Shown: piece after piece, positions 3,866-7,201 of the stretch | Layout: every line of letters starts with the position of its first letter | Position numbering within the stretch: the stretch's first letter is position 1 | Assembly: GCA_016432325.1 (NCBI GenBank) | Contig: CP066684.1 | Location: 62,001 to 126,000 of the forward strand | Origin: Candidatus Aenigmatarchaeota archaeon | Lineage (GTDB): Archaea; Aenigmatarchaeota; Aenigmatarchaeia; PWEA01; JACQIF01 | DNA length: 64,000 nucleotides | Direction: 5' to 3' | Notes under the pieces: model-generated | Databases searched by the model: none | Seen by the model: the letters and a program-made list of their open reading frames with translations, nothing else | Told to the model about the DNA's origin: nothing | Made by a program: the position numbers and the translations under genes

Positions 3866-4801
3866 ATGGCAAGCATCAAAAAGACATTCGTGAACAAGGG
3901 CATAAGGAAACTGACGATAGAGGAGTACCTCAGGAACAGCTTCCAGAAGGCGGGTTACTCGCACTCGGACATCAGGCGCACGCCTTTGGGGATGCAGATA
4001 ACCGTTCACGCCGACCGCGTGGGCCTCATAATCGGCAGGGGAGGCCAGACCATAAACGCGATGACCGAGAAACTTGAAAAGGATTACGGGCTCGAGAACC
4101 CGAGGCTCAACGTGGAAGAGATAGGCAAGCCGTTCCTCAACGCGAAAATCGTCGCCGAGGAGATAAAGAACGCGGTGGAGAAAAAGGTCAACCACCGCAA
4201 GATTTGCAACATCATGATGCAGAGAATACTTGCAGCCGGCGCAGTCGGATGCCAGATACGCATAAGCGGTCGCATAGGAGGCGCCAAGTCGCGCAGGGAC
4301 AAGTTCAACATCGGTTACCTGAAGCACTCCGGGCAGTATGCGAAGGATCTCGTGGACACGGCCACGGTGGAAGCGCAGACGAAGCTCTCTTCGATAGGCA
4401 TCAAGGTCAAGATAATGAGATCGAAGCCGGAGGCGGACATAGCGTCGCTGCGCGCAATCATGGAGAAGAGACCCGAGGCGGCGCAGGCCGTTCAGCTCAG
4501 ATGCCCTGTCTGCAGCAAGGATTACGACAACGAACGTTCGCTCAAGATACATATCGGTCAGAGACACCCGGAGGCGCAGGCGCCTGTCGCATCCGCGCAG
4601 GCGGACGCGTCGCCGCCTCAGGAAGACACCAAAGTCGCGCAGCTGCTCGAAGGCAACGTCTCAGACGTCAGGAAGAAGATAGAAGATGCCAGAAGGCCGG
4701 ACGTCAAACTGCTGCTCAGGTCCGAAAAGGAAGGCAAGAACAGGAAAGGAGTCGTCGAGTATCTGGAGAGACGCGTTGCGGAGAAGGAGGCGAAATCGTA
4801 A
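3866..4801 (+). CDS. rps3: Ribosomal protein uS3 fused to a C2H2 zinc finger
   Basis: Small-subunit protein uS3 (311 aa), at the mRNA entry channel. Residues 1-200 are canonical: an N-terminal domain, a KH domain with the GLIIGRGGQTI loop, and the C-terminal uS3 domain (GRIGGAKSRRDKFNIGYLKHSG). An extra C-terminal module follows. It contains Cys213 and Cys216, then His229 and His234 (C-x2-C-x12-H-x4-H), which is a C2H2 zinc finger. After that come an Ala/Pro linker and a helical basic region (LLLRSEKEGKNRKGVVEYLERR). Standard archaeal uS3 is about 210-250 aa without the finger. The stop overlaps the uL29 start by one base. Confidence 0.95.
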   Translation: MASIKKTFVNKGIRKLTIEEYLRNSFQKAGYSHSDIRRTPLGMQITVHADRVGLIIGRGGQTINAMTEKLEKDYGLENPRLNVEEIGKPFLNAKIVAEEIKNAVEKKVNHRKICNIMMQRILAAGAVGCQIRISGRIGGAKSRRDKFNIGYLKHSGQYAKDLVDTATVEAQTKLSSIGIKVKIMRSKPEADIASLRAIMEKRPEAAQAVQLRCPVCSKDYDNERSLKIHIGQRHPEAQAPVASAQADASPPQEDTKVAQLLEGNVSDVRKKIEDARRPDVKLLLRSEKEGKNRKGVVEYLERRVAEKEAKS

Positions 4802-5037
4802 TGAGCATCATACGCGCGAAGGAGATGAGGTCGATGGAAGAGCGGGAACTTCGCAAGCGCGTCGACGAGTTGAGACTCGAGCTTACGAAATCGCAGGCTC
4901 AGGTGGCCATAGGCGGCGCGCCGCCGAATCCGGGCAGGATAGGGGAGATAAAGAGAACAATCGCACGCGCGTTGACGATAAGGAGGGAGCGCGCATCAAA
5001 GTCACAATCGCAGAAACCCGCAAAACGAGGTGCATGA
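4801..5037 (+). CDS. rpl29: Ribosomal protein uL29
   Basis: Large-subunit protein uL29 (78 aa), a two-helix protein near the exit tunnel. The pattern AKEMRSMEERELRKRVDELRLELTKSQ, then PPNPGRIGEIKRTIARALT, is the family signature. It has a short basic tail. ATG 4801 shares its first base with the uS3 stop (TAATG), consistent with translational coupling. Its own stop at 5035-5037 lies inside a hairpin that precedes aIF1. Confidence 0.94.
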   Translation: MSIIRAKEMRSMEERELRKRVDELRLELTKSQAQVAIGGAPPNPGRIGEIKRTIARALTIRRERASKSQSQKPAKRGA

Positions 5038-5050: not shown

Positions 5051-5075
5051 ACCTCCTCGCTTCGAAAAAATCCAG

Positions 5076-5090
5076 AGGTGACAAGAAATA
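5076..5090 (+). promoter_or_regulatory. Ribosome binding site and ATA start codon of aIF1
   Basis: AGGTGA at 5076-5081 matches the archaeal anti-Shine-Dalgarno region well and lies 6 nt before ATA at 5088-5090. A stop codon in frame with aIF1 lies at 5079-5081, inside the binding site, so translation cannot begin further upstream. No ATG, GTG or TTG occurs in frame before the zinc-ribbon codons. The next in-frame ATG (5145) has no binding site. Confidence 0.7.
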
Positions 5091-5414
5091 GCAGAAGTAT
5101 GCCCCAACTGCGGGCTTCCAAAGGCTCTGTGCGTCTGCGAGACGATGGCCAAGGAGAGCGAGAAGATAAAAATCTCCGTGGAGAACAGGCGATTCGGCAA
5201 GGACGTTACGATAGTCGAAAACGTCCTTGAGGGCATGAATCCCCAGATGATAACGAAGACGCTAAAGCAGAAACTCGCGTGCGGCGGGACATACAAGAAC
5301 GGCCGCATAGAACTGCAGGGCGACCACCTGAGACGCGCCGAGGAAATCCTCGTCTCACTGGGGTTCGACAAGGCGCAGATAGAGAAAGGCGGCAGAAAAA
5401 GGATGGGCCGGTGA
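5088..5414 (+). CDS. Translation initiation factor aIF1 (SUI1 family), ATA start
   Basis: Archaeal aIF1 (108 aa) monitors start-codon choice on the small subunit. The SUI1 domain spans roughly residues 25-105 (RRFGKDVTIVENV, then LKQKLACGGTYKNGRIELQGDH). An N-terminal zinc ribbon, as in other archaeal homologues, has Cys5, Cys8, Cys15 and Cys17 (CPNCGLPKALCVC). This ribbon is in frame only if translation starts at ATA 5088, preceded by a well-spaced AGGTGA. Starting at ATG 5145 would delete the ribbon and use a site with no ribosome binding site. The stop overlaps the Rpp29 start by one base (TGATG). Confidence 0.9.
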   Translation: MAEVCPNCGLPKALCVCETMAKESEKIKISVENRRFGKDVTIVENVLEGMNPQMITKTLKQKLACGGTYKNGRIELQGDHLRRAEEILVSLGFDKAQIEKGGRKRMGR

Positions 5415-5698
5415 TGCGTACGATAACTCCGGGAAACGTCGTGAATCATGAGCTGATAGGGTTGAAGGTGAAGGTCGTGGAAGCGGATAATAAGGCACAG
5501 AAGGGAATCGAAGGCCGCGTCGTCGACGAGACGAAGGGCTCGCTCGTCGTGGAAACGCAAAGAGGAGAGAAGAAAGTGGATAAGAAAGGACGAACGTTCG
5601 CATTCACAATCCCAAGCGGGAAGCGCGTGCGCGTCGACGGAAACGTCATCGCGTATCGACCGGAAGACCGCATCAAGCGAAGATTGGAGAAGTGGTGA
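5414..5698 (+). CDS. rnp1: RNase P protein component 1 (Rpp29/Pop4)
   Basis: Protein subunit of archaeal RNase P (94 aa), which trims the 5' leader of pre-tRNAs with the RNase P RNA. The Sm-like barrel shows as NHELIGLKVKVVEADNKAQKGIEGRVVDETKGSL, followed by VDKKGRTFAFTIP and a basic end. Position between aIF1 and uS17 is the classic archaeal order. ATG 5414 overlaps the aIF1 stop; GTG 5411 is an alternative one codon upstream. Confidence 0.92.
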   Translation: MRTITPGNVVNHELIGLKVKVVEADNKAQKGIEGRVVDETKGSLVVETQRGEKKVDKKGRTFAFTIPSGKRVRVDGNVIAYRPEDRIKRRLEKW

Positions 5699-5701
5699 AG
5701 G

Positions 5702-5887
5702 ATGAAAGTAATCGAGGTTAGAGACAAGAGGAGAGTCGAACACTATCTGGTTCCCTCCGGAACGCTGGCGGATTTGGAGAGAAAGGCGATAGCGCTCGAT
5801 GACGTGATTCCGCTCTGCGATAGACTGCCCGAATACAAAGGGCATGTCGATTATACAGTAACGCTTGAGAGAAAGGTGGCGAAATGA
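5702..5887 (+). CDS. Small unknown protein between rnp1 and uS17
   Basis: A 61-residue protein starting at ATG 5702, after GTGAAGG. Its stop overlaps the uS17 start by 4 nt (ATGA), which supports real translation. Predicted content: strand-rich start (MKVIEVRDKRRVEHYLVPSG), a helix around LADLERKAIALDD, and a final strand (HVDYTVTLERKV). No cysteine pairs or membrane segment. Not part of the standard operon and not recognised. Confidence 0.6.
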   Translation: MKVIEVRDKRRVEHYLVPSGTLADLERKAIALDDVIPLCDRLPEYKGHVDYTVTLERKVAK

Positions 5888-6682: not shown

Positions 6683-7201
6683 ATGCGCATAAGATCCGTC
6701 CAGCCGAGAAAACAGCGCGCGTACGTGTACAACGCGCCCCTGCACACTCGCCAGAAGCTCGTGCACGCGGCCCTGGACAAGAAACTGCGCAAGGAATACG
6801 GTCGGCGCTCGCTCGCGCTGAGGAAGGGAGACAAGGTCGAAGTGATGAGAGGCTCGTTCGCCGGCGTCAGAGGCGAGATAAAGGAAGTGGACCTCAAAGA
6901 CCTGCGAGTTACGGTGGACGGCGTGAAGAGGAAGAAGGCAGACGGAACCGAAGTGCAGGTTCGCATGCATCCCTCGAATTTGAGAATCATCGAAGCCCTG
7001 GTGGACGACAAGAAACGCGCTCGCATAATAGAGCGTTCGGGAGGCAAGGTCACACTCACAAAGAAAAAGACAGAGAAGGAGGCAAAGGCCGCACACACGG
7101 AAGGGGTAAAGTGTCCCCTATGCAGCGAGACGTTCGAAAACAACGCGGCGGCCAACGTGCACGTGACAGAGAAGCACAAGGAGTACGCACAACAGCAATG
7201 A
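6683..7201 (+). CDS. rpl24: Ribosomal protein uL24 fused to a C2H2 zinc finger
   Basis: Large-subunit protein uL24 (172 aa), an assembly initiator with a KOW motif. Residues 1-120 are archaeal uL24 (RRSLALRKGDKVEVMRGSFAG, KOW, then HPSNLRIIEALVDD). A basic linker leads to Cys144, Cys147, His160 and His165 (C-x2-C-x12-H-x4-H), a C2H2 zinc finger at the very C-terminus. Usual archaeal uL24 is about 120 aa and has no finger. The spacing of the four ligands is identical to the finger on uS3 in the same operon. Confidence 0.95.
   Translation: MRIRSVQPRKQRAYVYNAPLHTRQKLVHAALDKKLRKEYGRRSLALRKGDKVEVMRGSFAGVRGEIKEVDLKDLRVTVDGVKRKKADGTEVQVRMHPSNLRIIEALVDDKKRARIIERSGGKVTLTKKKTEKEAKAAHTEGVKCPLCSETFENNAAANVHVTEKHKEYAQQQ

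Follow-up and report, generated by a model that had tools for sequence, protein, structure and literature searches.

Among the closest described systems is the bacterial gene infC. Its product, IF3, accepts AUG, GUG, and UUG as start codons and discriminates against the rest, and infC is autoregulated through its own start codon, which is AUU in E. coli and AUC in Streptomyces (PMC4611024, PMC9410913, PMC5472188). Streptomyces sigR, which starts at GTC, is likewise repressed by IF3 (PMC5472188). In eukaryotes, according to PMC6237735, eIF1 limits its own synthesis via an AUG in poor context. For archaea, PMC6237735 and PMC8211752 cite work of Hasenohrl in which the aIF1 of S. solfataricus destabilizes initiation complexes on non-AUG codons.

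The window analyzed here, the whole stretch of 64,000 nucleotides spanning bases 62001-126000 of a Candidatus Aenigmatarchaeota genome, carries an aIF1 gene that would start at ATA. The features that bear on this reading are the following.

4801-5037, + strand: rpl29, the upstream neighbor, with an ATG start (every matching locus of the order likewise has ATG at the aligned start)
5075-5081, + strand: Shine-Dalgarno sequence GAGGTGA, matching AGGAGGTGA over 7 contiguous bases and lying six nt ahead of the start
5079-5081, + strand: in-frame stop TGA within the Shine-Dalgarno sequence, which bars any earlier start
5088-5414, + strand: aIF1 (SUI1 family) coding sequence, 108 amino acids plus stop, from profile and homology matches
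5088-5090, + strand: predicted ATA start codon of aIF1, a position that is ATH throughout the order (14/14 genomes)
5100-5138, + strand: N-terminal zinc ribbon CPNCGLPKALCVC, motif CX2CGLPX3C-phi-C
5145-5147, + strand: first in-frame ATG, after the ribbon; relatives mostly encode Ile or Leu at this position
5157-5366, + strand: SUI1 domain (PF01253, E 1.6e-18)
5414-5698, + strand: rnp1 (RNase P protein 1), the downstream neighbor, whose ATG overlaps the aIF1 stop

In profile searches, the protein matches SUI1 (PF01253) at 67 bits and NF002096 at 122.5 bits against a cut-off of 98, and its gene is the single SUI1 gene in the entire 874,769-base, single-contig genome. The NCBIfam label for this family, stress response translation initiation inhibitor YciH, is misleading for an archaeal aIF1. 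Read from the ATA, the protein aligns with M. jannaschii aIF1 (4MO0) at E 4e-28, residue 2 to residue 2, and its nearest named relative, in JACQIF010000086.1, shares 80% identity. The ribbon motif is present in ∼64% of archaeal aIF1 proteins, as given in PMC6237735. Protein, ribbon, and SUI1 domain are alike in the window's aIF1 and in that of M. jannaschii; what differs is the start, which is canonical in the ATG-started aIF1 genes of the other archaeal groups sampled, M. jannaschii among them, and ATA here.

The spacer CAAGAA (5082-5087) separates GAGGTGA from ATA, and the frame of the ribbon reads AGG-TGA-CAA-GAA-ATA-GCA-GAA-GTA-TGC. The initial annotation had placed the start at ATA 5088, with AGGTGA 6 nt ahead of it and an in-frame stop at 5079-5081, and every one of these coordinates holds. 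Starts farther upstream are therefore excluded by the TGA. From that stop to the first Cys codon there is no in-frame ATG, GTG, or TTG, which bears out for the window's gene the earlier claim that none precedes the ribbon. The spacing of six is normal here, since window genes with a clear Shine-Dalgarno sequence mostly start 4-6 nt past it. From the ATA, the protein begins IAEVCPNCGLP…, and the ribbon cysteines 5, 8, 15, and 17 fall in frame within 5100-5138, as had been predicted. Because residue 2 aligns with residue 2 of 4MO0, the ATA occupies the place of Met1, in agreement with the earlier suggestion that the change lies at the start position itself. The ATG at 5145, described before as lacking a binding site, indeed has no Shine-Dalgarno sequence, and it is not the start, because relatives mostly have an Ile or Leu codon there; an internal start at this unconserved codon was rejected, the ribbon being conserved in all. 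Compared with shuffled sequences, the RNA structure of the aIF1 leader showed nothing beyond the shuffles (z -0.10). From the comparison with relatives, initiation of aIF1 at ATA 5088 is close to certain.

Each of the 14 genomes of the order has exactly one SUI1 gene. Alignment of their aIF1 starts, which the initial annotation had suggested as a check, gave ATH and not ATG in all 14, 5-6 nt past a Shine-Dalgarno position that is purine-rich in each: ATC in nine (G005-G013), ATA in four (G000, G001, G003, and G004), and ATT in one (G002). In G005, G011, G012, and G013, the stop TAA abuts the ATC (TAA ATC GCT AAC TGC), so that hardly any space is left for another start. No canonical codon stands before the first Cys in 12/14 of these genomes; in the other two, G001 and G008, that Cys is immediately preceded by a GTG or ATG, which lies ∼15 nt from the Shine-Dalgarno sequence and so is not a plausible start. 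In G001 and G004, the Shine-Dalgarno region is purine-rich and a poor match to AGGAGGTGA (3 contiguous bases). The upstream stop differs in identity and position among the relatives, while the spacing from the Shine-Dalgarno sequence to the ATH stays constant at 5-6 nt. Across the 14 genomes, the third base of the start exchanges among A, C, and T and is never G, a pattern that fits selection against AUG, seen in 14 related genomes and thus in few independent events. Gene callers limited to ATG, GTG, and TTG would remove the zinc ribbon from aIF1 in this order.

The genes around aIF1 served as controls. Over those loci of the order that contain the 5′ end of the gene, rps3, rpl22, rpl29, rnp1, rps17, rpl14, and rpl24 have ATG, GTG, or TTG at or beside the aligned start. 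For aIF1A, another initiation factor gene, nine loci could be read, and each has a canonical codon close to where the start is expected; this count leaves out three loci unmatched by the motif and one cut by a contig end. The rarity of such starts was surveyed among 387 coding-scored predicted genes in 364 kb (42% of the genome, including 15 stretches of 20 kb), where aIF1 alone has a 7-nt Shine-Dalgarno match before ATH or CTG and no upstream ATG, GTG, or TTG. The few other ATH or CTG candidates among these genes follow weaker Shine-Dalgarno sequences, and most of them either have an ATG close at hand or lie in questionable open reading frames. General use of AUH starts was rejected, since these remaining candidates are weaker. 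Comparison thus shows that the predicted initiation at AUH behind a Shine-Dalgarno sequence is specific to aIF1 and kept across the order, and we conclude that this AUH start is under selection there.

Some further features of the locus and genome were observed. Both rps3 (3866-4801) and rpl24 (6683-7201) encode a C-terminal C2H2-like zinc finger (CPVCSKDYDNERSLKIHIGQRH; CPLCSETFENNAAANVHVTEKH), and a 61-aa open reading frame at 5702-5887, between rnp1 and rps17, has no tblastn match in the loci of the order. Within the 875-kb genome G000 (L182-L189), just 8 tRNA matches have E values of 0.001 or better and ARAGORN finds two; most of the matches span 85-111 bases, with apparent introns after the anticodon region, and the tRNA genes of this genome are possibly heavily interrupted or split.

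Across the phylum, the ribbon pattern was matched in 119/156 genomes, and outside the order, aIF1 starts are mostly ATG, with a few GTG or TTG. ATA on aIF1 recurs in genus g21 (G030, G067, and G068) and in family f6 (G038, G044, G099, G100, G108, and G109), ATC in G054, and CTG at an equal Shine-Dalgarno distance in eight genomes of families f9, f15, f22, f23, and f24. Several of these ATH and CTG cases are ambiguous, with a GTG or TTG in or against the Shine-Dalgarno sequence or just before the Cys; no such competitor was seen in the examined stretch of G030, G044, G067, G068, and G109 (ATA) or of G017, G051, and G066 (CTG). The f6 genomes with an ATG start are an internal control: their ATG comes one codon later, mostly at a spacing of 9, and a codon outside the ATH set stands at spacing 6. 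Among the matches listed for three other archaeal groups, read by eye, no ATH or CTG start was seen on aIF1, and the starts that departed from ATG were TTG in the Methanomethylicota group and GTG or TTG in a few other cases. The TTG-started set, in which TTG follows GGTGA (G156, G329, G345, G361, G391, G405, G424, G454, and G508), groups around a Methanomethylicota genome and is another instance of a weak start on aIF1. The ribbon itself also varies. In L022 (G021), its four cysteines are replaced (MVEIDPKTGLPKELGVWE) and GLPKEL is retained, and in L036 and L043 (G058 and G048; family f21), an additional CxxCG pair precedes the ribbon (MALCPKCGAQATQNTCSKCGLPFDLCVC), a putative longer or doubled N-terminal metal site.

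In a tree of six concatenated proteins of the locus, the order forms one clade (SH-aLRT 98), and genus g21, with its ATA starts, and family f6 each fall in a separate clade. At least 8 changes between canonical, ATH, and CTG starts are required on this tree. Its loci were gathered by a search that favored ATH, and its deep forks are compatible with more than one number of origins; a non-AUG start may have been gained early and reverted later.

By analogy with infC, we consider it probable that the AUH start makes aIF1 self-limiting through negative feedback. In this proposal, the strong Shine-Dalgarno sequence would position the ribosome, and Met-tRNAi would start at AUA 5088. Because aIF1, as published for S. 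solfataricus, destabilizes initiation complexes on non-AUG codons, its own mRNA would be translated well only when aIF1 is scarce and poorly otherwise, and the AUH codon, like the AUU of infC, would be the sensor of a negative feedback that holds aIF1 in step with ribosomes. From the published biochemistry of aIF1, we infer that the window's aIF1 would discriminate against the AUH of its own mRNA, which would make it self-limiting. Feedback is favored because the affected gene encodes the judge of start codons. Against it, most sampled archaea start aIF1 at ATG, so archaea as a whole can do without such a loop, and the strong Shine-Dalgarno sequence may offset the weak codon.

A real AUH start could also set a low, constant output of aIF1 inside a highly expressed ribosomal operon with no feedback at all, an alternative that we regard as less likely. 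It accounts for the conservation and the sequence data equally well, the gene sits among ribosomal protein genes where a weak start would simply lower the output of one gene, and E. coli pcnB, which has an AUU start, is translationally limited (cited in PMC9410913). What it leaves unexplained is why the gene hit is the one that judges start codons, as it is in bacteria and, through poor context, in eukaryotes. A general laxity of start choice in these archaea, with AUH starts drifting in without consequence, is improbable: aIF1 starts in the phylum do vary among ATG, GTG, TTG, ATH, and CTG, but in the same genomes the neighboring genes and aIF1A keep ATG, GTG, or TTG, no second gene as strong was found in 42% of the genome, and an ATH that is fixed in 14/14 genomes does not look like drift.

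We give still less weight to the idea that the ribbon is reached by upstream readthrough or frameshifting, or through a dedicated initiator tRNA, rather than by ordinary AUH initiation. An in-frame stop does lie just upstream, and few tRNAs of the genome were recognized, the initiator tRNA not being among those identified; however, the leader has no structure beyond the shuffles, and readthrough or frameshifting from rpl29 was rejected because the stop varies among relatives while the Shine-Dalgarno spacing does not. As for an error at base 5090, which the initial annotation had named as the main alternative, or a start at ATG 5145 that would yield a ribbonless protein, the window does come from one assembly, and no in-frame ATG precedes 5145. 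Thirteen other genomes agree with the ATH reading, non-AUG starts recur outside the order, and 5145 has neither conservation nor a Shine-Dalgarno sequence, so on the sequence comparison this alternative can be taken as effectively refuted.

With self-limitation of aIF1 as the preferred reading, archaea gain a candidate for the self-limiting loop known from IF3 and eIF1. The related genomes with AUG, AUH, or CUG on aIF1 offer a natural comparison set, and the fidelity role of aIF1 in cells becomes testable by a simple reporter. Control of this kind through the start codon is known in two domains, and the archaeal case on aIF1 appears to be new: no earlier report of it was found in the papers searched, which is weak evidence since most subscription papers lie outside the search.

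The parallel with infC drawn in the initial annotation proves closer than was noted there. In both systems, a gene for a fidelity factor has an AUH start, of a codon class that the factor rejects or, for the aIF1 here, would reject, and the choice of codon is rare in the genome and conserved over the lineage. The AUA, AUC, and AUU starts in the order (14/14 genomes), and the CUG found elsewhere, lie outside the AUG, GUG, and UUG accepted by IF3; the change affects the fidelity factor alone, being absent from operon neighbors and aIF1A and exceptional among the 387 genes surveyed. However, infC encodes IF3, whereas the factor here belongs to the SUI1 family and is not an IF3 homologue in sequence, so the aIF1 system is not infC, though it may work like it. 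Unlike infC, the aIF1 gene lies within a ribosomal S10/spc-type operon and has CTG variants in related families, and the feedback that has been demonstrated for infC is read here from sequence and published biochemistry. Eukaryotic eIF1 is a homologous SUI1-family factor with a weak initiation site on its own mRNA; there, an AUG in poor context is met after scanning, while the aIF1 of the window has a non-AUG codon, ATA, placed by a good Shine-Dalgarno sequence. In Streptomyces sigR, as proposed for aIF1, a noncanonical start is the regulatory input to a fidelity factor, with the difference that sigR is another gene under the control of that factor and the control proposed for aIF1 is over itself. 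On balance, we lean slightly toward the view that a fidelity factor limiting itself through a start codon it rejects occurs in all three domains, with a separate archaeal origin on a SUI1-family protein that uses AUA, AUC, or AUU, and CUG in other Aenigmatarchaeota.
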